64,000 nt of DNA, from the NCBI GenBank assembly GCA_021432635.1, contig MU270100.1, forward strand, positions 183,592 to 247,591. The letters are read 5' to 3'. Of the stretch, positions 13,621 to 28,759 are shown piece after piece. Each line of letters starts with the position of its first letter. The first letter of the stretch is position 1. Position numbers and translations under genes: made by a program. The stretch comes from Thozetella sp. PMI_491. Taxonomy: Eukaryota; Ascomycota; Sordariomycetes; Chaetosphaeriales; Chaetosphaeriaceae. A model generated the notes under the pieces. The model ran no database searches, was not told the origin of the DNA, and saw only the letters and a list, made by a program, of their open reading frames with translations.

Positions 13621-15061
13621 GGTCGGTGGCGGGAATGGGAATTGGGAATGGGGGAAGAGAACAGAAATTGAGACGCACATGTGGCGAGAGGACGACGCCC
13701 GGGAAGCTGACGCATGCTTAGCGTTTAGTACCGGCGTGCGCGCCGGCGCCAGCGGCTTGGGCTAACTTTGCGATGCTGCGGGGGTGTAGCCCGCGAGGTC
13801 AAGGTATTGGTTGCGGCCGAGCGCCTCCTGGTAATCTGCGCTGGCATGTGCACGGGGATGCATGCAGGATTAGCGCCTTGGCCTGGCTCCAGCTGCTTTC
13901 AGGAGGAGAGCTGAATGAGGTAATATATTCGAGATTATGTCTAGAATCTGACCGTGTGAGACATAGGTCGTTGCTGGAGGCCGTGACAAGATCCAGAGCG
14001 ACTCTCGTAAAACAACAAAAAAAAAAAAAAAGACATGCAGGGTATAGCGATTATTTGGAGCGTTGAAGGGGTCCCTAGCATGGGTAAGACGCTATTGTCG
14101 GAAAAGATAAAGACCCCGATGGACGACACCATGGTGTGGAGGGGCTTGAGCTTTGAGCTGGGAGGTGTCTGGTGTGGTGTGTAGCTGAGGAGTCGGTCGG
14201 GGTCTGACGTGGACGACTCGCCCAGCAGCCACTCTCGTATCCTCGTACTCGCGGCTTATCAGAGATACGAGTATACGGAAAGACCATCGGAGGAGACCTT
14301 GAGCTCCTCTCCTCTTGCCCACCCGTGACTTTTCGCATCGCTTCCATGCATGCCATGGGCTGGTCGAAAGCGTCGCAAGCTCGCTGTAGTGGGTCCAAAC
14401 CTTATTTGATGCTATTGGGACCGGACGGTAGTAGGGTGCCCTTGGGCGACTGATCGGCACGACCTCACGTGACGCGGGCCGTGCCTCGCAGCGCAACCTG
14501 GCGTGGATCTGGAAGCTTTCCACGTGAGGTTCCGCCATGAGGCTCTGCGTGCCACACGGTTGCATGTGCCAAGGATGTTGGTCGGGTTATTACCCGGTTC
14601 TCGCCCTAGAAGGCGCGGAGTATAGCTTGCAAAAGTACCTCTTCCAGAATTTACGGATATAGTTAGGGTTTAGTGTGTATGCGGCCCTCTCGTCGCGAGG
14701 GTTACGCAAGACAAAAGTTCACAAAACACCTTAGAAGCCCAGTAGCGCGTCTTCTTCTCTTACTAATCCCGCAGTGTTTACCGACACACGCTGCCCAGTG
14801 CCCACAGGCTATAACGACGCCAAAAATACGACAAAGTAACAATAATTTGGTCGCTCAGGTTGAGATGCAAAGTCAGGCCCAGTTACATGGCCGCAGTGGA
14901 GATTCCATCGGCTGGTGCCTGGTGCCTGGTACCCCTCTCCATGCCCCTGTCAGCCTTCCAAATTCATGCTGGACTTTACATACCGCACATCCCTCTGCCT
15001 CTCTTCTTCCCGCTCCGAGCCTCCGTTTAATTATTTTGTCTCGGTCAGCGCCGTCGATTCA
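13621..15061. other. Intergenic region, 1.4 kb
   Basis: Shared upstream region of the GH47 gene (leftward) and the NLR gene (rightward). Contains an A-run at 14015-14030 and nothing else I can support. An in-frame upstream ATG at 14915 could extend the NLR by 49 residues. Confidence 0.45.
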
Positions 15062-18000
15062 ATGCATCTTGTCCAAGCAGGCACGGCCAACCCGGTCGGA
15101 CTGACCGCACGAACCACTACGCTCATCAACGTTTGCGCGAAAGTCATCGGCTGCATACAGGAAGTGAAGGATGGCTCAAACCGGCGCACCCAGCTGAGGC
15201 TGGAGATGTTCTCGGTCAAAGCAACTCTAGAATGCTTTCTCACGACAGTCTACGATGCGGAGGTGGACCCTGAAGCCTGGTCTGCAACGATGCGGTTCGT
15301 AAATTGCGACGGGGGTCTGATCGATCTCCTTGAAAGCCAGCTAGTCGGTCTTCATGACGAACTCGCCCAAGCAGTGCACGCAAAAGGCGTTGGACTCAAC
15401 ATCAAGGGTGTCGCATGGCCGTTTGAGGACAGCGACTTGGAGGAACGATTGGAGGCCATCCGCAGACAAAAGGCACTCCTCAATCTCGCTTTGGACAACG
15501 ATCATGAGGCCTTGCTGGACGAGATCCGTGGCGATGTAATTTCCATATATTCCGACGCATCTCAGCCGGTTTCCGAAACAACTTCCGAGGCACTGGAGCG
15601 TAGAGAGAAAGAAGGGAATCGGTATACTTTGCTTTGGCTCAGCCCAGTCGACCACGTCGCTCAGCAGGCCGATTCCATCAGCCAGAGGCTGGAAAGCACC
15701 GGGCAATGGATCCTAGACTCTTCAGAATTCCAGACATGGCTGGTGACCGAGAACCAGACGCTTATCTGCCAAGGAAACCCTGCTGTGGGAAAGACTGTCC
15801 TTGCACCGATTATTATCGAGCATCTCCACAGGATGTATCGAACAAGCGGCACGCACAGCCAGATAACCGAAAGAAAGGCCCATGTAGGCATTGCCCATGT
15901 CTATTGCAATTATCGATGGAAACACATTCAAAATGCCAGAGAACTTCTCGCCAGTTTGCTGGCTCAGCTCTGCGACTCCCTGTCTCCTTTCCCGGAATGC
16001 GTGGGTGATCTCTCCATCGCCTTTCTTGGATATTCAATAGCGCCTCCATTTGAAAGTATTTGGAAAGCGCTCCAGAAAGTGGCTACTCGGTTCTCGCGGG
16101 TTTTTGTCGTCATTGACGGGCTTGACGAAAGCTCTCCAGAAGTAAGGGAGGCGCTGCTAGATGCACTTGCCCACCTGCAGAAATTAGAAGACGTCCATTT
16201 GAACATATTTGCAACATCGAGCCCAGAAATCGTGCCACATTTTGCCGACCAGTTTCCGGGATGTCTGTTGACAGAGGTTCGGGTAACGGAAGATGAGATT
16301 CTCACTTACATCAATAGCCGACTACACACCGTTCGCCGCCCTTGCCTTTCGAATTTTCCGAGGCTAAAGGACGAGATTAGGAGCCAGATCATAAAATGCG
16401 CCAATGGAAGGTATTTCACGCTTGTTTCTCACTCTTGCTCTGTATCATTTCATCTTTCTAACCATTCGCTAGATTTCTGGCCGCAAAGTTACTCTTAGAC
16501 CACATATTTAGCAAGCCAACAGCTGGGGATATCAGAGATGCGCTGGAGGAGATGGGACCTGAGGCATCGGACCTGGATTCACTGTATTCCCTGGCCATGG
16601 AGCGAATCGATGGCCAAGAATCCCGTATTCGGGAGACTGCGATCAAAGCTCTCTACTGGACCCTGCATTCCAAGAGACAACTTACCACCACTGAGCTCCA
16701 ATATGCCGTCGCAGTCAGAGCAAAATCGCTTAAACTGGAGCCGGAATATCTTTCTCAGCTTGACCATCTAGTCTCCGACTGCGCCGGACTATTGGTAATC
16801 GACGAGGCGAGCAACACTGTCCGTCTAATGCACCACACCGCGGAGAAGTATCTACAACAGACACAGCACGAATGGTTTCCAAACGCGAATGCCGAAATTG
16901 CAGCAACATGTATCAACTACCTCTCCTTCTGTGAGTTTGAGGATGGTCCATGTGTTCCACACTCGGATTTCAAGGAGCGGCTACAGCAAAACCCACTCTA
17001 CGACTACGCTGCCCGTCACTGGGGACAGCATGCTGGCAGCGGCACGACGACGCCGCAAATGCTCGACTTTTTCTCATGCCTGTCAAAAGTCCAAGCATCA
17101 GCTCAGGCAGTGATGGTAGATCTCAGACCCGCTTGGCAACATCCGAAAGAGCCCGTCCCCAAGGACGTCGCTGGACTGCATCTGGCGGCATGTCTCGACC
17201 TTATAGGAATATGCGACGTCTTATGCGAAGAGGGCTGTGACGTCAATATCACAGACAGTTTTGGCCGCACGCCGTTGAGCTATGCCGCCCAGCTAGGACA
17301 CAAGGCGTTCGTGAAAGCACTTACTTCAAGGAACGCCAACGTCAACGCCCCAGATGAGCGCGGCGCGACACCACTTGGATACGCTATTAAGGGAGGACAC
17401 AAGGTTGTAGCTGAGTTGCTCCTTGCTCACGGCGCCAACATCAACTCGGACGACTATTCCTCACCACCCTTAAGTCTTGCTGCCCACACGGGGGACGAGG
17501 CCCTAGTTCGTCTCATCATCTCGTATAACCCCGATATCAATCTAGCGAACAGTGCAGGCGGGACTCCACTCACATCTGCTGCTGGGGGAGGGCATCTCTC
17601 TATAGTTCAGCTTTTGCTTGATCTTGGAGCCGAGATTAACCAGGGATGGCCACTGATCTCTGCAGCTCGGGGTGGATACGAAGATATAGTTGCACTCTTG
17701 CTCGCGCACGGGGCCGATGCTAGCCTCGAAAATGAGTATAGCCAGACGCCGTTGAGGTGGGCGGCCCAAAGAGGGGACGAGGCTATCGTCAAGCTGCTGC
17801 TTGATCACAACGCCAAGATCGACACGGCGGATAAATACAACGAGTCGCCGTTGGCCTGTGCAGCGACGAAAGGGCATGCCGGCATTGTTCAGCTCCTTCT
17901 TGATCGCGGAGCTGATGTGAACCTTGCACATGGCTTCAACTCGACGCCAATAGCCCGTGCCGCTTCGCACGGACATAAAGCTGTTGTCCAGCTCCTACTC

Positions 18001-18591
18001 TCGCGCCAGCCCAACGTCAAGAAAGATGACTTTTCTGGCTCGATGCCATTGATCTACGCTGCCCGAGGAGGGCACAGCGAAATTGTTGCGCTATTGCTTG
18101 CGCACGGAGCCGACGTAAATCTTGCGGATAACTGTGAAATGACAGCTCTAAGCTATGTGGCTGAGGAAGGGATTGAGTCTATTGCTCAGTTACTGCTTAA
18201 TTACGGGGCCGAAGTAGACAACGCCGACCATTCTAACCGGACACCGTTAAGCCGTGCCGCCAGTAAGGGACACGAGCCTGTTGCTCGCCTGTTGCTCGCT
18301 CATGGGTGCGACATCAACCGCGCAGACACCTTCAGCCAGACTCCATTGAGCTATGCTGCCGAGAACGGTCATGAGGGCATCGTTGAACTGCTCCTTGCTC
18401 AGAATGCTGACATCAATCTTGCCACTACTTTCGGCTGGACGCCGCTGACATTTGCGGCTCGCCACGGGCGCAGCGCTGTGGTCCGGATGCTACTAGCCCA
18501 CAACGCTAATGCCAATACAATCGATAAATACGGGCGAAAGCCTCTAGATTATGCTGCTAAAAGAGATATACGACTATTGTTGAGTTGCTAA
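15062..18591 (+). CDS. NLR-like NACHT/STAND NTPase with about 15 ankyrin repeats
   Basis: Exons 15062-16410 and 16473-18591 with a 62-nt intron (GTATTT to TCGCTAG, branch CTAAC) give 1155 residues. The junction reads CANGR-FLAAKLLL, a conserved spot in fungal NACHT proteins. The N-terminal roughly 130 residues are helical, like the regulatory or HeLo-like heads of this group. Walker A CQGNPAVGKT is at about 237-245 and Walker B VFVVIDGLDES at about 346-356. From about residue 680 to the end there are fourteen full and one partial ankyrin repeats (PLxxAAxxGHxxIVxLLLxxGAD). Proteins of this plan are intracellular non-self sensors in fungi. Which ligand or cell-death output this one has is unknown. 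The start is uncertain (15062 or 14915). Confidence 0.9.
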
Positions 18592-18847: not shown

Positions 18848-19778
18848 CTACATGTCTACTCCATTGAGAGCCAACCTCAGGAGAGTAGAGTTCTTAATCT
18901 CATCAGCTCGATCTTTAAGCTCGTCCACGTCCCAGTTGACCCAAACAAACTTCCGCTTGAGGAATTCGGCCTCGGGCGAAGCGAGCCAGACGGTGAAGTT
19001 GCCGCAGAGCTCAGCTGAGGAAAGGTGTAATTAGCAAGATGCTCACAGACCACACGATCAAGCTAGAGGAGTGCTTACGCGTATCCTCACTGACCACACC
19101 AAACCTAGCATTGAGCCCAGTGGACACTACACCGGGCTGGAGCTGGACCACATGCCACTCTGGCTGCTGCTCCTGTAGGTAGTCGAACATTTTGACAACA
19201 GCTGCCTTTCCAGCAGCGTATGACCAATGTTCGATCCACATAGGCGCTATATGCGCCATGCCCGACGAGATGTTGTACACGTGGGCGTGGGTAGCGAGCA
19301 CCGGTGCGAAGGATTGCATCACGTTGAAGGCGCCGATGACGTTGACCTCCAGTCCGTAGCGATACTGAGACTCGGAATACCCTTTCACTGGCCCTATATC
19401 CTGCGAGACACCCGCGCTGTGTACAAGGATGTCAACCTTGGCGTTCCCAGCCTTCTCCATGAGGCCAGCGACCGCGCTGTCTAAGCTGGCACGCTTGCTG
19501 ACATCAGCGCTTTCGAACAGCACCTTGGTCTCGTGCGCGCTGGCCTCCTTGGATATCTCGGCGGCTGCAAGCTCCAGGTTCTCTAGCCGTCGGGCGAGAA
19601 TTGCGATAGTCTTGGCACCAGCCTGCGCAAACGCTATGGCGATTGCTTTGCCGAGGCCCGTTGCGCCGCCCGTGACAACGACGAACTTGCCTTTGGCGCT
19701 AAGCTCGGGACGCTTGGGATCGATTGCCGCATAGGGCTCGTTGTGCCAAGTCTTTGTAAAAGAGACGAAGTTGGACAT
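18848..19778 (-). CDS. Short-chain dehydrogenase/reductase (SDR)
   Basis: Exons 19079-19778 and 18848-19014 (minus) with a 64-nt intron (GTAAGC to TTTCCTCAG) give 288 residues. Classical SDR: the NAD(P)-binding motif VVVTGGATGLGKAIA (TGxxxGxG) lies at about residues 35-49, and the downstream segments SAGVS, NVIGAFN, ISSG and YAAGK (catalytic Tyr-x3-Lys) are present. Exon 2 supplies ELCGNFTVWLASPEAEFLKR and the tail common to fungal SDRs; without splicing the frame would end early. The start at 19778 begins MSNFVSFTKTWHNEPYAAID; an upstream extension lacks homology. It is divergent from the Zn2Cys6 gene 451 bp away, so co-regulation is plausible. The substrate is unknown. Confidence 0.88.
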
Positions 19779-20229
19779 TTTTGCTTGATCGCGATAGAAG
19801 GCGAATGGTGCTCTCGTTACAGGATTTGAAGGAAGGATATCGGTCAACTGCAGGGACTCCAACGGCAATTTATACCTGGATCGCATACCACGTATACACC
19901 AGTCCTCATAGAACAAATCATTTTGACAGTAGATGACTCGCCTTGAGCTGAAGCATTTGCAATAGAAAATCCATGGAGGCTCTGTTCACATGCGAGGCAT
20001 TGGTGATGTTTATATTGTTACTAATATGCTGTTGTGGTTTGTCAGCACCTCCATGGAGGCTTGGCACGCGATTCTACCTTCAGTAGACGGGCATCTTCCC
20101 CAATGCCATCGATCAGCCACTTCCACGGAGAACTTTGTCATCGAGCCCACCACCTAGTGCAGACTCAAGCCTGATCTAGGACTCCACTCCGATGCGGAAG
20201 ATAATACTTCAACGGAGTTCGGAACTGCA
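19779..20229. promoter_or_regulatory. Divergent SDR / Zn2Cys6 promoter region
   Basis: 451 bp between the two start codons. It contains two copies of CCATGGAGGC (19971-19980 and 20052-20061) and no gene. Bidirectional control is inference from the arrangement. Confidence 0.45.
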
Positions 20230-22118
20230 ATGGAACCAAACAATCGTCCAAGAAAGGTAGGATCACGCTCAAAATTCGAGTCTGATATCCGAGGCGGGCT
20301 ACTAAGGTATCCGAGAACAGGCGTGCGACCTATGCTACACTCGAAAGCTCAAATGCGATAGGCAGTCGCCTCGATGCTCGAACTGCGTTACCTATGCGAC
20401 AGACTGTACGCATGCGGCAGAGCGTCGAAAGTGGGAACCTAAGGGGCGCCGTAACGGCCGCGCTCAAGAGACGGCCGAAATCCGAAGTCTGCGAGCACAG
20501 ATACAAAGTTTAAAGGCGCAAGTTGTACGTCATCTCCGCCAGTTGAAATCGCAAGTATGCTCATAATGAACAATCTCCACCATAGCCTCGAGTACGAGGT
20601 CGAGCGCAAGATCAAGCCGAAGACATCACGAACTCGACGACAGCAGCTTTGTCTCAAGATCAACCCTCCAAAGATACTGAGAAACCCATCAACTCCATGA
20701 GCCTCCCTCCTCTACAAGAATCCTTGGCCATGATCGGAGTCTTTCTCAACACTGTCAACACTGTCCTGCCACTCTTCCACACTGACACACTTTTACGAAT
20801 TGTTGGCGAATGCTACGCGCTCCCACCTCTTCAGCGTGATCCGGTGGTATGGGCTACTATCAACGTGGTTTTGGCTCTGGCTAGCCAGCACATGCCGACG
20901 GGCAACACCGACGGCAGGGATAGATTCCGAACTGATCGTGCGACTGAGTATCTAAACAAAGCACAATCCATCATCTCGCAGTTGATGTTAGGCGACATTC
21001 GTCTCTTGAACATACAGGCACTTATTGGTATGATTATGGTGCTCCAGACAGCACATGATGTCACCCCATCATTGATCTTGATATCAGCGACGATGCGGCT
21101 CGCACACAAGTTGGGCTTACACAGCCGTGCCGCATCGGCGCATCTCGATCCAGTTGAAAGGCGACAGCACGCCCATGTGTTTTGGCTGGCGTATATACTT
21201 GACAAGGATCTGAGCCTGCGTGCCCATCAGCCTTCGATTCAGCTCGACGACGATATTGATATAGAACTACCCTCCCCGTCGCTAGCGGCTAATGAAGTGA
21301 ATGCCAGCGCTTGTGGTATCGTCGCTACGGCCGACGGCAAAACTAAGATGAACTTCTTCCTAGCACGTGTCCAACTCGCGACCATCGAGGGCTCCATATA
21401 TGACTATCTTTACTCGACACGCGCCGCAAACCGCACTGTTGAGCAGCGATTGATGGCGAGGGAGGGTATAACCCGTACACTAGAGCAGTGGCGAGCTTCT
21501 ATTCCGCTAGAATTTGAGGCTGATGTCGTCACCTCGAATACGAGCAATAACTCCGCCATCGGTAGCTTCTTTTGCGTCCTACACTCAATCAGTCTACAAT
21601 GTATAACACTTGTCAACCAGGCTCACGCTTGGGATGAACAGTGGGTAATAGGTCTTCGCGACCATGGCCGAGGGGTTCGAACGCTACAGCTCCCGCCAGG
21701 ATGGGAATGTTTGGTCCGCCAAGCTCGGAACTTCATGGTCTTATTCAGCAAGGAGTGGTCAGGCGATGCCTGGTTTCGCTGGTCAGTTCCTTCCAAATAT
21801 GTTAGGGTGCCATACTCTAACGATAGCAGGATGGCTTCCTGCTCCTACATTACAGCCATGGGACTGTTGATAGCAAATGATCTGGGTAATCCAGAACACA
21901 GTGAGACGCGGTCAGATAGCCAACTTGTTGACGCAGCACTCGTGTGGCTGAACGAGAGGATAAGTGAGGGCCAAAAGGATGACGTTCGAGTGCTTCGCGA
22001 TGTGTGCGTTGAAGCTGTTCGAGAGGTACGGCGGAAGCGCGCGGAAGCCATTGCAATGGACAACGTCGGCAGTCTATTTTCCAGTTCCCTCGTCGTTACC
22101 TGGTCGTTTCCAACATAA
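20230..22118 (+). CDS. Zn2Cys6 transcription factor (fungal_trans type)
   Basis: Exons 20230-20256, 20321-20524 and 20586-22118 give 587 residues. Introns are 64 nt (GTAGGA to GAACAG) and 61 nt (GTACGT to ACCATAG). The 9-residue first exon splices to ACDLCYTRKLKCDRQSPRC, completing a canonical C-x2-C-x6-C-x6-C-x2-C-x6-C zinc cluster, followed by a basic linker. The rest is a fungal-specific regulatory domain (ATINVVLALASQH, LIGMIMVLQT, ATMRLAHKLGLH, FWLAYILDKDLSLR). A further 48-nt in-frame segment (21782-21829, GTCAGT to TAGCAG with a CTAAC branch) looks like a fourth intron and would shorten the protein by 16 residues (FRW-MASCSY). Nuclear regulator and the nearest one to the RiPP locus; targets are unknown. 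Confidence 0.88.
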
Positions 22119-22518: not shown

Positions 22519-23535
22519 TCAAGGGAATTCTGATAAAATCAGCGCGCCTTCGTGAGGTTGGACCTTCATCTCCTTGAGCAATGGCTGTTGCCTCGTTCTT
22601 GCAGCTTCTCGGATTGCGTCGAAGCTTTTACACTTGTGATCGCGGTTGAAGTCGGGGAAAGGATGAGGGGGTTCCCCGACCCAGAGGAAGGGCTGCAAGC
22701 CCGTATCAGCACTGCACATCAAAGCCTGTCGGACCATATCAAGACAGTGCCTAATGTGTCGCCTTAGGGTCTCTTCATTGTTATAGAAAGCGCCTTCACC
22801 ACGCTCGCGGTAATAGTCCACGTTAAAGTAAATAGATTGGCGAAGCAGATTCTAGGGAGACAGCGTTAACCTAGTGCAAAAGAAACTGAACCAGGTCAGA
22901 CCCTTACCAAACAGTGTAACTGATGCAGAGCTTCCACTATAACCGGATATCCCGGGCCGCCATACTCTTCGCCCACTCTCAGGCGGTCTAGCGATACACC
23001 TGACTTCTCTGCTTCCCCAACCGGAAGAACCATCGCAGAATCTGAACCATGTGTCAGTTATGCTACCGTACTAGGCCTACATCTCCAGATTAGATAAAAA
23101 AATAACCAACAGTCTGTGCCGAGCGACTTCCATGCAGCATCCACCTCGGGGCTCGGTTCCCCACGGAAGATATTGTCCTTGAATAAAGACCCGTTAAAGG
23201 TGATCGAAGAGTACTTGACATTAGCTTCCTGCAGGATTGGTGCTATTTCGTATCAATTAGCAAAGTACCTCACTGGAAGGTCATCCTAGACTCGTACTCC
23301 AACTTTGAGATGTATGAATAGCACATGTCATGTCGAGGCCGGTTTCCTTAGCCAACATTGTTGCAACAAAAGTCAAAGTGTTGGTCAATAGAATGAGTAG
23401 AACCGCGACTAAAAAATGGAAGTGGCGATTTAAAGATAGCCCCTCTTGACCTTTACGGCCACGCAGCTCGGCCCCATTCTCGCCATCGACCGTCCCGGTG
23501 AGGAATGGGACCGTAGTTTCATCCGGGAGCCCCAT
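22519..23535 (-). CDS. UstYa/DUF3328 family oxidative cyclase-like protein (copy A)
   Basis: Four exons (minus): 23298-23535, 23111-23242, 22908-23041 and 22519-22851, with introns of 55, 69 and 56 nt. All join in phase to 278 residues. One TM segment (FHFLVAVLLILLTNTLTF) sits near the N-terminus. The body has the family hallmarks SSITFNGSLFKDNIFRGEPS, PEVDAAWKSLGTDYSAMVLP and YPVIVEALHQLHCLNLLRQ, then HIRHCLDMVRQALMCSADTG and DFNRDHKCKSFDAI. Both HxxHC motifs (HQLHC, HIRHC) are intact. Characterised homologs carry out oxidative macrocyclisation of fungal ribosomal peptides (dikaritins). Membrane-anchored, with the catalytic part probably lumenal. Part of the locus with the precursor at 26223-26531. 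Confidence 0.9.
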
Positions 23536-24057
23536 TAGGTTGTGAATTCCTCTTCCCCGATTACCGCTTTCGCAAATCTTTATATTTAAGCTGTAAAGTG
23601 CCTTTTCGATATTTGCTGTGAAACGTGCCGATGGTACAAGGCTTGAAGCTGCTGTTTGCTAGCGGCCAACGGTGCCCAATTTTGGGAGTGGAGGAAAGTG
23701 GAAGGGTATGGGACTCGGGTGGGTATTTAAAGGAGCAGATTGAGTGATCCTACATCGCACGTGCTCAGTGTAAGCAACCCAAAGAGCAAGCCAATATGCA
23801 TCCCTGGAAATGGTGGCAAGCCGGGCAACTACCGCTACAGACTCAAGATCACCCACTGTCTTTCTGCGGTTTTTTGCCTTCCTGCCTTAGGAATAGAACC
23901 TATGTTCTCTACCCTTATGCTAGAAGTAGGACCTTTGCTACACTATTCACTCTGCAACCATAACCTCCTGTTAACCTAGGCCATCACTTCGAACTCTTTT
24001 TTTTCTTTCGAAAATGTCGTTATGAGAGCACTATCTACAGCTTCCTAGTCTATACAG
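23536..24057. other. Intergenic region between UstYa-like copies A and B
   Basis: About 520 bp holding the promoter of copy A and the 3' region of copy B. A repeated element CCGATTACCG lies at about 23558-23567. No gene seen. Confidence 0.45.
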
Positions 24058-25166
24058 CTAGCTTAAAGGCGACCAGCTACCACGCATCGGCGTGGGGTGT
24101 GGCCTACTATTTTCCTCTTTACTTAGAACATGCATGTGTTTGGATGCCCATTCCTGGATGCCCTCCCACTTGCGGCAAGTGTGAGGCGCCTCAGCCCTCA
24201 GAACAGTTCGGTTGATGGCATCCGACCAGTACCATTTCATCGGCGTGAGATCTCCCTGGCACTGGATGGCCTGCCGCAAAAAGTCTATGCAATGGTCTGA
24301 GCGAGTTAGAAGTCTGATGCTGGCTGGAGACGGCGTTGGTGTTTATACCAAGGTGAATCCAAGTGAATGCTCGCTTAGCTTTGTCCTCTGGGAAGAGATA
24401 ATAGCTCCTATAGACGGCCATTCTGATCATGTTCTGCTGTTGTAAGCAATGAACTGACGCAACAAATCTAGAAGGCTGAATCATACCAAGCAGTGGATGT
24501 TATGGTGCACCGTTAATCTGATCGATGCAGATTAGTAAATGTAGCTCTCTGCTTTATATGTCATCGTACCCCGTGAAATGCAGGTCCGTGTCTGGCCACA
24601 CATAGGTATCCGAGATATCTTTTGCTTCACTCCCGGTGAGATCAATATTGATTGCTATTTTTTTCCCCGGAAGTCAGGATCACCTCTTCCAATGGGGAAG
24701 CGAACAAGTCGTACGAGATATCAAATCTTTCCAGGCATCGTCTATGGCGTCGCTTGGTGGTCCAACGTACTCTAGCCCTGTAGGTGTTGGCACTCGAATC
24801 CACTCTCCTTTCTCATCCAGAGACAGCTCGCCAGTAAATGGGAATACGACCACTTCAATAGCAGACGCAGCAGCATCTACCGTATCTTGTCAGCATCCAC
24901 TTCTGATTCATGAGGAGCTAGGCACCCTCCTTACCGAGCTCTGTGTCGAAGCCATACCCATAACCCTTCCTACCAGAATAAAATATCCACAAAAGAAGAA
25001 GTGTTGCAGCTGCAAAGATTACGGTTGTCGCAGTCAAAAATGTCTCTCGAGTGCATCTGAGTCGCCTCGTCGTTTGCCCTTCTATCTCCTGAGTAGTTTC
25101 ATCGTCGCTTTTTTCACCGAGAGGTTGGTAAACCAGCGATATGTCCCTCCTCAGAGAGGCAAACAT
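24058..25166 (-). CDS. UstYa/DUF3328 family protein (copy B)
   Basis: Six exons (minus): 24935-25166, 24715-24876, 24570-24654, 24487-24517, 24349-24433 and 24058-24296. Introns of 52-60 nt all join in phase to 277 residues. N-terminal cytosolic tail, one TM helix (FLTATTVIFAAATLLLLWIF), then IEVVVFPFTGELSLDEKGEW, EYVGPPSDAIDDAWKDL, TYVWPDTDLHFTGLTVHHNI (leading into HC), CLNMIRMAVYRSYY, HLDHCIDFLRQAIQCQGDLT and PHTCRKWEGIQEW. Both HxxHC motifs (HNIHC, HLDHC) are present. The 31-nt exon 4 carries the first motif; its frame is disrupted unless the flanking short introns are removed. The fold and likely role match copy A (peptide oxidation/cyclisation), but copies A and B diverge strongly, so their reactions probably differ. 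Confidence 0.9.
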
Positions 25167-26222
25167 TTTATTCAGTGGAAGAGATAGAGTGAGAGGCCGA
25201 ATGTAGGGAGAGAACTTGCCCGGGTAGTAAGTTAGAGGAGTTCACCCATCAACTGTTACAGAGCCAGTCTCCTCTATCCGCACACGTGGCGGTTTAGGCC
25301 ACGCAATTGGCTAGAATCAAATATATACCGCAGGTTTGACAATGGAGATTGAAGGTTCTCACCCCGCTCGTAACTGCATGATTAAACGGCGAGGGCCAGT
25401 AGGAGATCCCCGAAGTGCAGAGGACTTGGGCATAAAACCCGGAAATACGACTTGATAACAGAGGATTCATAGTACCCACAGTCGCTGAGTGAGAGCTACG
25501 CTTACTTGTTTCGGTGTCCAATGACATGGATATGAGGCTCAAGGCTCGGCGACCTATTCTGTTGGCGCGGCACGCGGGCTGATCTCCACATTGACGACGC
25601 TGTGTTGTCGGAAGAAGGCATCGCTTATAAACGGAGCAATAATTGTCAAGTGATCATAATCTAGCTGCAATTAAAAGCAGTTTCCAGCACACGTGTTTTT
25701 TGTTTATTTGGGCAATACTGCTTGGTTTGGTTAGCAAGGAAACCAAAATGCAACGTAAGGAGCATTAGAATGTTTGTGATCGACAGCCGAGTATCGCCCA
25801 CCGCTGTTCTCTTGTCCACTTAAACAAAAATGCCAGGTACATGTTTAAATCAACCCAGATTTGCCATAAAGCGATTTATTTCGATGCATCGCAGCGCTGT
25901 CACAAGTGAGCGCTGCTAAAGGTTAGCATGTGCAGCGAACATAACCTTGGAATCAGGGGATCACAGGTGGTCTGCAAGTAGTTTTTATGTGGCTCAGTGT
26001 TTGACTATACTGAAGATAGAACTGAAGCTAGGGACGGTCGCCAAGTATCCGGGCTGCTTTGTCGACCTTCAAATTTCTACGGCTAGCTAGCATTCTGGCA
26101 CTGTAGCCCTATTTCTTGACTCTCACAAATCCTCCCGTCTCCTATCAATTTGTTACCCTTGTTTCATCCTAAATGTTGTTGAGCCATGAGAGAACTGAAG
26201 TTTGAGAATTCAAGTCTCACCT
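25167..26222. other. Intergenic region, 1.06 kb
   Basis: Promoter of copy B at the left, 3' region of the peptide precursor at the right. A minus-strand frame starting at 25527 (about 77 codons) has no family resemblance and I do not call it. A possible 3'-UTR intron of the precursor (GTGAGA at 26220 down to ATTTAG near 26168) is visible just after its stop codon. Confidence 0.45.
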
Positions 26223-26531
26223 CTAAAAGTAGATGTACTGGCCATCGTCGGGAGACTGGCGTTTCTCTTCGGCAGATCCATCACGCCTAAAGTAGATGTA
26301 TTGACCGTCATCTGGGCTCTGGCGTTTCTCTTCATCGCGCTTGAAGTAGATGTATTGGCCGTCATCGGGTGACTGACGCTTCTCCTCATCACGCCTGAAA
26401 TAAATGTACTGACCATCATCGGGGCTCTGGCGCTTCTCCTGGACAGCAGTAGAAACCTCGGTGGCAGGAGTTGGGGCGGCAGCAGCCAGGTGGACCACAG
26501 CCAAGACGGCAAGGGTGCTTAAGAACTGCAT
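26223..26531 (-). CDS. Secreted RiPP precursor with four Kex2-flanked 11-residue cores (dikaritin-like)
   Basis: Single-exon 102-residue precursor. A signal peptide (MQFLSTLAVLAVVHLAAAA) is followed by a short pro-segment ending in EKR, then four identical copies of QSPDDGQYIYF at residues 35-45, 53-63, 71-81 and 92-102. Each copy is preceded by a Kex2 site (KR at 33-34, 51-52, 69-70, 90-91). The first three are followed by RR or KR plus an acidic DEE or DGSAEE spacer, and the last ends the protein at its Phe. This is the layout of fungal dikaritin precursors, processed by Kex2 in the secretory pathway and cyclised by UstYa-type proteins. Three such genes adjoin. The core differs from those of the products I know. 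Product structure is inference. Confidence 0.9.
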   Translation of the reverse strand: MQFLSTLAVLAVVHLAAAAPTPATEVSTAVQEKRQSPDDGQYIYFRRDEEKRQSPDDGQYIYFKRDEEKRQSPDDGQYIYFRRDGSAEEKRQSPDDGQYIYF

Positions 26532-27036
26532 TTTTGTGGAGGAAATCTAGGGCACTGAGTCTAGGATTAGGGTGAGAAGTATCGTGTGATCGGGCTCAAA
26601 GGGCGAGTAGGACTGCCTGTTTATATACAAGAAAGCGAGTCCCGCATTCTGATGCAACTCGCAGGTGAGGCACGGCCTCTCTGGTGGATTACACTCAAGT
26701 ACCTCCCAAGCCATGCACTGTGGTAAGCGACTGTTGTCCGTGTATTAGCTTATTTAGACTCACGGACAAGCAAAGAATGAATGTGCTCACACGTGGAGAG
26801 CACAGGGATCATGGACGTATTGGAGTGAGGCGGTATGCATGCCTCTTGATGCATAGGTTCTTCGGCGTGGTCAGTCAGCTTTGATGTCACTCGGGTCATA
26901 GCAAGAGCGGGGGAATTCCTGCCTAGCGCTAGTGACATACCAAGCAACCGGTACTTCTCGGATGTATATCCTACAAAGTTTCTCTCCCTCAACACACCAG
27001 ACAGACATCACCTAGCCTGCTCAAAGAACCAACAAA
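26532..27036. promoter_or_regulatory. Divergent promoter between peptide precursor and UstYa-like copy C
   Basis: 505 bp between the two start codons. A minus-strand TATATAA (26621-26627) lies 90 bp before the precursor ATG. No gene seen. Shared control of precursor and copy C is inferred from the head-to-head arrangement. Confidence 0.55.
26621..26627 (-). promoter_or_regulatory. TATA box of the RiPP precursor
   Basis: TATATAA on the minus strand, 90 bp upstream of the precursor start codon, with a C/A-rich leader between. Confidence 0.55.
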
Positions 27037-27974
27037 ATGCCATTTCTAAGAAGCTTTAATATGTTCTCGACCAGAGCACACGCCCTTAAGGGCTCTTACC
27101 TCCCCGTGAGCGGTGCAGCTGATGGCGAGTCTCCTCATAGTCGACGAGCCGATGCCGATGCCACCGTAATTAAACTCACGAAACAGATTCGCTTCTTCTC
27201 CATGCTTTCTTCACTTCTTCTAGTTATTCTTCTGTTGTCTGCTCTTGGTCACATCCTCCGACCTCCTAAATCCTCAAACAGTCTTGCCAAAGATGGACTG
27301 CTTCTGGCACCTGCCTGTAAGCTCATCTTCTTTTTATCACGAAGCGGTGCTGACATGTATGGGATATGGATATAGTTCCCCTTGTGACGAAGATATTCGA
27401 GAACCGCAATCTCATCAAAGAAATATCAGCTGAAGTGGAAGCCCGGTGGGAAGCAGATATGCCTAGTATGTACCGTAGTAAAGTTCGCAATCGGAACCTA
27501 CTAATGTGCAACAGGAGGAAGAGGATTCGTTCACGTTCCAGGATTCCATACAGAAGATCCTGATGGCAATATCCACGTCGTCTCTGTCTTCCACCAGCTT
27601 CACTGCCTGGTGAGTTCTCATTGGAAGGTAGCTTCGCCATGAGCATTCTAATCAAGTAAGTCTAGTACATGATGCAGAAATCTTTTACTCGAGCCATGCA
27701 GAATTCATCTCAGGTAGAGGAAAAGGAAGTCTACCACACTTACCACTGTGCCGAGCTTCTCCGCCAAGCCCTCAAATGCGCGGCCGACCCAACCTTGGAT
27801 TCGACGGCCGTCGTCCCCTCAAGCCCTACTGGACGTGGGACAAGTGGTTGGAATGGTACCCACGTGTGCAGAGACTTTGATAGCCTATTTGCCTGGACAG
27901 ATGCCCATCGGACTAACGATCGGGTTGGGGCCGGAATTCTAGACGGGCATCACGTCGCGGATCATCACCAATAG
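27037..27974 (+). CDS. UstYa/DUF3328 family protein (copy C)
   Basis: Four exons: 27037-27316, 27376-27465, 27515-27609 and 27678-27974, with introns of 59, 49 and 68 nt, give 253 residues in phase. N-terminal tail, one TM helix (FFSMLSSLLLVILLLSALGH), then VTKIFENRNLIKEISAEVEA, MPRGRGFVHVPGFHTEDPDG, VVSVFHQLHCL, VYHTYHCAELLRQALKCAAD and GTHVCRDFDSLFAWTDAHR. Both HxxHC motifs (HQLHC, HTYHC) are intact, and a THxCRDF segment follows as in other members. The stalk between TM and first motif is shorter and lacks the DAAW element seen in A and B, so this is a different subfamily. Divergent from the peptide precursor. Confidence 0.88.
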
Positions 27975-28679: not shown

Positions 28680-28759
28680 NNNNNNNNNNNNNNNNNNNNN
28701 NNNNNNNNNNNNNNNNNNNNNNNNNNNNNNNNNNNNNNNNNNNNNNNNNNNNNNNNNNN
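28680..28759. other. Assembly gap (80 N)
   Basis: Run of N bases. Its left edge is a sequence repeated elsewhere in the window, so an unassembled dispersed element is the likely cause. The true length is unknown. Confidence 0.98.

Follow-up and report, generated by a model that had tools for sequence, protein, structure and literature searches.

By its sequence, a compact locus in the fungus Thozetella sp. PMI_491 very probably directs the synthesis of a new modified ribosomal peptide, in which three UstYa-type oxidases would act on a unit of 11 residues that is repeated in the precursor. The locus occupies positions 22519–27974 of the window, that is, of the whole 64,000-nucleotide stretch of contig MU270100.1 that was analysed, and all positions below are those of the window. 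It comprises a repeat precursor and three UstYa genes, here called A, B and C, and in all likelihood it is a biosynthetic cluster of the dikaritin type, in which the precursor would be cut by a Kex2-type protease to QSPDDGQYIYF and the peptide oxidised by the three proteins. An earlier note, made from the letters of this DNA, had proposed a ribosomal-peptide locus of dikaritin type, and the anatomy of the precursor together with the three UstYa proteins agrees with it. The locus adds a new member to the dikaritins, an otherwise known group.

The precursor gene (26223–26531 including the stop codon, minus strand) is a single exon with one open frame and encodes a 102-residue repeat protein that ends in Phe-stop. 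Its N-terminus, MQFLSTLAVLAVVHLAAAAP, ending in AAAAP, was judged by eye to be hydrophobic and signal-peptide-like, and the protein is probably secreted. There are four exact QSPDDGQYIYF units, located at 26397–26429, 26343–26375, 26289–26321 and 26226–26258 of the minus strand; each is preceded by KR, RR or KR follows three of them, and the fourth runs directly into the stop codon. The earlier note had described four identical 11-residue units, each after KR, and this was found to be exact in the minus-strand frame 26531–26223, as were its coordinates for the locus. The spacers between the units are, in order, RRDEEKR, KRDEEKR and RRDGSAEEKR, and Tandem Repeats Finder (TRF) reads the array as three copies of 54 bp. 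Considering that the last unit runs into Phe-stop and that the borders are dibasic, both the unit and the C-terminus are fixed.

The four core copies vary at 11 of their 33 nucleotides and in 9 of their 11 codons, with the encoded 11 residues identical in all of them. Across the copies there are 18 departures from the consensus of the unit, all silent and including AGC/TCN serine switches. Every pair of copies differs by 5 to 8 bases, so that they are unlikely to be recent duplicates. When an equal number of changes was placed at random in the copies, the protein was kept in none of 200,000 trials, a figure which is indicative only because the units had been picked for being identical. As the copies differ only silently, the peptide itself is under selection, and as the silent changes reach both ends of the unit, this selection extends to the whole 11-mer and not just to its Tyr-containing end. 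The nucleotide difference per site of this precursor (0.207) is the second highest of the ten repeat precursors detected in the genome, after that of locus L024 (0.227); among the four precursors without any amino-acid change it is the most diverged at the nucleotide level, the other three lying between 0.085 and 0.125.

Gene A (22519–23535, minus strand; exons 23535–23298, 23242–23111, 23041–22908 and 22851–22519) encodes 278 residues, gene B (24058–25166, minus strand; exons 25166–24935, 24876–24715, 24654–24570, 24517–24487, 24433–24349 and 24296–24058) encodes 277, and gene C (27037–27974, plus strand; exons 27037–27316, 27376–27465, 27515–27609 and 27666–27974) encodes 257. A and B are within 3.7 kb of the precursor on one side; C is 0.5 kb off on the other and divergently oriented from it, with 505 bp between. 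All the introns are GT-AG and 49–69 bp long, and each protein has a single hydrophobic N-terminal stretch, as read by eye. It had been claimed that the spliced products of the three neighbours are of the UstYa type with both HxxHC motifs, which is the rule described for UstYa/DUF3328 proteins (PMC12048977), and we confirmed it. The motifs are HQLHC and HIRHC in A, HNIHC and HLDHC in B, and HQLHC and HTYHC in C, and the Pfam UstYa model PF11807 matched A, B and C with E-values of 7e-55, 2e-40 and 3e-20 (bit scores 187, 139 and 74, the cut-off being 25), the match in C spanning profile positions 115–220 only. A was scanned in its first model of 276 residues; after comparison with homologues its first donor site was shifted by 6 bases and the corrected model was verified against the DNA. 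The model of B is 52.3% identical over 281 columns to its Rhizodiscina orthologue NA57DRAFT_71898, and the deposited protein GQ53DRAFT_832844 (249 residues) is identical to C from the second Met, where the deposited model begins. Exon-by-exon searches of the Thozetella genome gave no close second copy of B or C: the next best match reached 47% in a stretch of about 70 residues for C and, with the Rhizodiscina B orthologue as query, 38% in one of about 120 for B.

Orthologues were sought among 120 of the 178 matches of a first protein search and all 33 of a second. Scytalidium lignicola has A (B7463_g3987, 60.6%), B (g3988, 43.7%) and C (g3990, 63.9% over 158 residues) on contigs of equal listed size (172198); Rhizodiscina lignyota has A (52.3%), B (52.3%) and C (55.8%), also on contigs of equal size (3322451); and Xylogone sp. 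PMI_703 has B (47.6%) and C (55.2%), equally so (6927901), with no A among the matches listed. Co-location was read in each case from the equal sizes, taken to mean the same contig. These fungi belong to the Leotiomycetes (two of them) and the Dothideomycetes. Because the orthologues of all three genes apparently sit together in Scytalidium lignicola and Rhizodiscina lignyota, the A-B-C trio looks like a conserved, patchily distributed unit. The Scytalidium gene numbers skip one between B and C, at the place matching that of the precursor in Thozetella; the existence of this gene, g3989, is deduced from the numbering alone. The deposited Scytalidium B lacks both HxxHC motifs, apparently through a gene model that skips short exons. 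Three metagenome proteins on short contigs were A-like (46%), B-like (56%) and C-like (60%). In a tree of 52 UstYa rows, our three and 49 selected from 153 listed proteins, the five B rows came together with support of 100/100 and the five C rows with 100/99. The A rows were weaker: the proteins of Thozetella, Scytalidium and Rhizodiscina grouped at 93/96 with an Oidiodendron protein nested within. It is conceivable, if rather doubtful, that A-B-C represents a separate conserved dikaritin pathway of at least three ascomycete classes, in which three non-interchangeable UstYa proteins would carry out all the oxidations on the whole 11-mer without tyrosinase or P450; if so, the product would be multiply cross-linked or dehydrogenated, of a type so far undescribed.

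Taking into account how the genes are built, that selection holds the 11-residue unit and that the enzyme trio is conserved, a pathway can be proposed, whose processing order, cross-link and division of labour we infer by analogy with relatives. Kex2 cleavage and UstYa-dependent oxidative cyclisation are established in these (PMC10512285, PMC6514808). The precursor would enter the secretory pathway, a Kex2-type protease would cleave after KR or RR between the units, and a carboxypeptidase would remove the basic residues left at their ends, so that QSPDDGQYIYF, presumably the peptide that is released, is obtained in four copies. The membrane-anchored A, B and C would oxidise it. One of them would most likely link side chains in the Tyr-Ile-Tyr-Phe end, for instance a Tyr oxygen to a nearby beta-carbon; with its two Tyr and a Phe this end would likely hold one or two links, by comparison with the FYYTGY of asperipin, and cyclisation of the peptide is by the same analogy likely. 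The remaining UstYa proteins would make a second link, a desaturation or a hydroxylation, Pro, Asp and Ile of the core being residues open to desaturation. Phomopsin chemistry takes place at residues such as these. Three UstYa homologues of phomopsin serve cyclisation and desaturation (PMC10512285). In the survey of Umemura in 2020, 1758 of 7878 repeat proteins of this kind had DUF3328 genes in their vicinity, at a mean distance of 3.09 genes, and Tyr occurred in 65.6% of the DUF3328-linked repeats against 38.2% of the rest (PMC7329392).

Three features of a dikaritin locus are present: a signal-like precursor start, repeated cores with Kex2 borders, and nearby UstYa proteins with two HxxHC motifs, here three. 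The Pfam scan of the neighbourhood covered 39 proteins or longer open frames, including the three spliced UstYa products, and short or split exons elsewhere fell outside it. Among these 39 there was no tyrosinase (UstQ/PhomQ type), P450 or S41 peptidase in the window, nor did the surroundings of the cluster show a gene like a peptide methyltransferase; the earlier remark that few classic tailoring genes are visible was thus borne out, none being seen beside the cluster. The tyrosinase and the S41 peptidase are the marks of the ustiloxin/phomopsin subgroup; the peptidase is also missing from the asperipin and U. virens ustiloxin clusters (PMC12048977).

The asperipin-2a cluster of Aspergillus flavus (aprA, aprY, aprT and aprR) likewise has a precursor and a UstYa-type oxidase, and it resembles our locus in its Tyr-rich core, FYYTGY, and in having no tyrosinase among its four genes (PMC6514808). 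Heterologous expression in the laboratory host Aspergillus oryzae has been used for asperipin-2a (PMC10512285). It has one UstYa homologue, whereas there are three here, and as it manages with one, the set in the window is not the minimal gene set that the earlier note had taken it for (PMC6514808). It also carries a transporter and an isoflavone reductase, neither of which was recognised at our locus, the cores differ, and it has no transcription factor (PMC10512285), while one adjoins our locus. The ustiloxin B cluster of A. flavus shares with ours the signal peptide, the Kex2 repeats, a C6-type regulator and a UstYa pair (PMC4740483, PMC10512285); it differs in its 15 genes and 16 repeats, and its first cyclic intermediate requires the tyrosinase homologue ustQ together with ustYa and ustYb. 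The phomopsin cluster also has several UstYa homologues (five according to PMC7329392), with roles beyond cyclisation (PMC10512285), but it requires a tyrosinase (PMC7329392) and its core is YVIPID (PMC7099791). Epichloecyclins (gigA) and victorin likewise come from Kex2 repeat precursors of plant-associated fungi, gigA with four repeats as here; their cores and links are unlike those of our locus, victorin being chlorinated and joined via a C-terminal Phe (PMC9233826).

Several points weigh against the assignment to a dikaritin pathway. In the 14–36 kb stretch nothing like a peptidase, a transporter or an isoflavone reductase was recognised, just a short-chain dehydrogenase/reductase (SDR) at 19–20 kb; and the protein search gave no relative of the precursor, hence none is known in the orthologous clusters. 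The A group of the tree is not exclusive, as it takes in the Oidiodendron protein and leaves out the A-like metagenome row. The Scytalidium cluster, moreover, may serve another peptide, as may the A-like enzymes of the genera of Umemura's type G-3. This type, with a di-histidine core, is DUF3328-linked in 57 of 64 cases and covers Scytalidium, Botrytis and Oidiodendron (PMC7329392), all three of which also carry A-like proteins.

A variant of the same assignment is that only one or two of the UstYa proteins act on the precursor, the others being remnants or parts of a different pathway. In a genome with about 125 UstYa genes chance neighbours are possible, and C is the furthest of the three from the Pfam model; however, the orthologues of A, B and C co-occur in two other fungi, the next best genome matches to B and C are far weaker, and both motifs are kept in all three, so that we regard this variant as unlikely. 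It is still less probable that the repeat protein acts unmodified, as a mating pheromone or some other signal released by Kex2, with the UstYa genes as chance neighbours or otherwise employed. Pheromone precursors do share the signal-plus-repeat layout, but DUF3328 genes are almost always absent beside alpha-type precursors, and repeat proteins of pheromone type were, with three exceptions, without such neighbours (PMC7329392). At our locus the precursor has three, two of them no more than 3.7 kb to one side and the third 0.5 kb to the other, and fungi of other classes seem to have kept the trio together. An acidic core with Y-I-Y-F is not known as the shape of a pheromone. That the array is no working precursor but a tandem repeat that arose by chance or is decaying is hardly credible: tandem repeats arise freely in fungal DNA and no homologue of the precursor was found, but the 18 consensus differences over four copies are all silent, serine switches included, and the signal-like start, the dibasic borders and the adjoining enzymes fit.

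The earlier note had not recognised QSPDDGQYIYF as the core of any product, and the searches support this. In 5.8 billion proteins (E up to 10, 1224 candidates) the precursor had no relative, its own protein being the sole match, and in the whole genome its own locus was the only one at E<=0.001. Neither DGQYIYF, the last seven residues of the core, nor DDGQYIYF was found in 5.39 million open-access papers, and QYIYF gave one unrelated match, on wastewater antibiotics. The NCBIfam models, which are prokaryotic, matched neither the precursor nor the UstYa proteins. Among the literature matches listed, mainly open access, none linked Thozetella to ribosomal peptides; the main text of Umemura 2020 (PMC7329392) names neither Thozetella, Rhizodiscina nor Xylogone, and a term search of the main text of an Arabidopsis root paper (PMC8664821) gave no mention of Thozetella. 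By 2022 the dikaritins on record numbered just five (PMC10512285), whereas 1758 repeat-protein genes have been counted that have DUF3328 genes nearby (PMC7329392). The specific worth of our locus is its seemingly conserved three-enzyme set without tyrosinase, together with the sharply defined core; because it is compact, its core well delimited and its candidate enzymes few, it is a good test of UstYa action in the absence of tyrosinase.

Convergent with A lies a gene for a Zn2Cys6 transcription factor (20306–22118, plus strand; Zn_clus and Fungal_trans in two open pieces), a candidate pathway regulator and putative cluster member. The adjoining SDR gene (19014–19985, minus strand) possibly belongs to the cluster as well. 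Further out on one side there are an NPHP3_N-ankyrin protein, a GH47 mannosidase, a FAD_binding_4 protein and a sugar transporter; the first of them, on the regulator side at 14864–18591, is an NLR-like gene with ankyrin repeats in two open pieces, its NACHT model being below the cut-off. On the other side there are a second Zn2Cys6 regulator, an NTF2_SigF protein and a hamartin-like protein; among the genes at least 15 kb past C are those for a DJ-1/PfpI protein, a mitochondrial carrier and an MT-A70 protein, the last a nucleic-acid methyltransferase. Just past gene C, at 28680–28759, a string of 80 N marks an assembly gap or masked sequence, where a small gene could be missed. The hexamer CACGTG was considered as a shared promoter motif, being present in all three intergenic stretches of the cluster with four sites; of 5,000 first-order shuffles, a fraction of 0.0002 had a site in each of the three stretches and 0.0006 had at least four sites. 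It had been chosen by eye, the palindromes ATGCAT and GAATTC also occur in all three stretches, which have 39 six-mers in common, and it was upstream of none of nine other repeat-precursor genes (800 bp, 150 bp in L015, with approximate starts); it was taken as chance.

The Thozetella genome (72.3 Mb, 157 contigs; the fungus is placed in Sordariomycetes, Chaetosphaeriales, PMC6367777) gave at least 149 matches to PF11807, merged into about 125 UstYa/DUF3328 genes at 91 loci, a lower bound since 150 of 203 candidates were scored, and with exons perhaps split or merged wrongly. The 1461 fungal strains surveyed by Umemura had 9399 DUF3328 genes between them, about 6.4 each (PMC7329392), which is not a like-for-like figure, as that survey spans all fungi and annotated genes. 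The genome looks unusually rich in UstYa genes and like an exceptional source of such peptides. We examined 24 of the 91 loci, namely the window and 23 of the other 90, picked by contig order and not by content, and nine of the 24 had at least one repeat precursor whose units are bordered by dibasic sites, which makes ten in total. The scan needs at least three near-identical units in one unspliced frame and can miss precursors; it found no second one in the remainder of the window. Shadow matches in another frame or strand of the same DNA (L011, L020/L021, L025) and duplicates from overlapping stretches (L001 of the window, L016 of L015, L021 of L020) were removed. Three shuffles of all 31 sequences gave no matches, a weak control as shuffling destroys any repeat. 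Tyr is present in the units of all ten precursors, and seven have a signal-like start, four in frame and three in an upstream open piece (L011, L015, L024) that a stop or a change of frame separates from the repeats, the break being taken for an intron; L010 is partly masked, and the count leaves aside the upstream DNA of L022 and L026.

The nine further precursors near UstYa genes (L010, L011, L012, L015/L016, L020/L021, L022, L024, L025 and L026) have units that include DVSVNTPGDRTGIYWGKV (eight times), SEAQSPDILYNNPAGWGK (five), QLYRDNGGGYSALVPGDVE (five) and WSDDFGAADGPASGYGQDK (four), besides units of the IEYIKEGK/IDYIKEGK type (14), YCGEDELK (four) and the EPLSVIINATY type (six). An SPD triplet was also seen directly behind or close to the Kex2 site in three otherwise dissimilar precursors, those of L012, L020 and the window (QSPDDGQYIYF, SEAQSPDILY and SPDVSVNTPG), which may be a recognition element or a coincidence.

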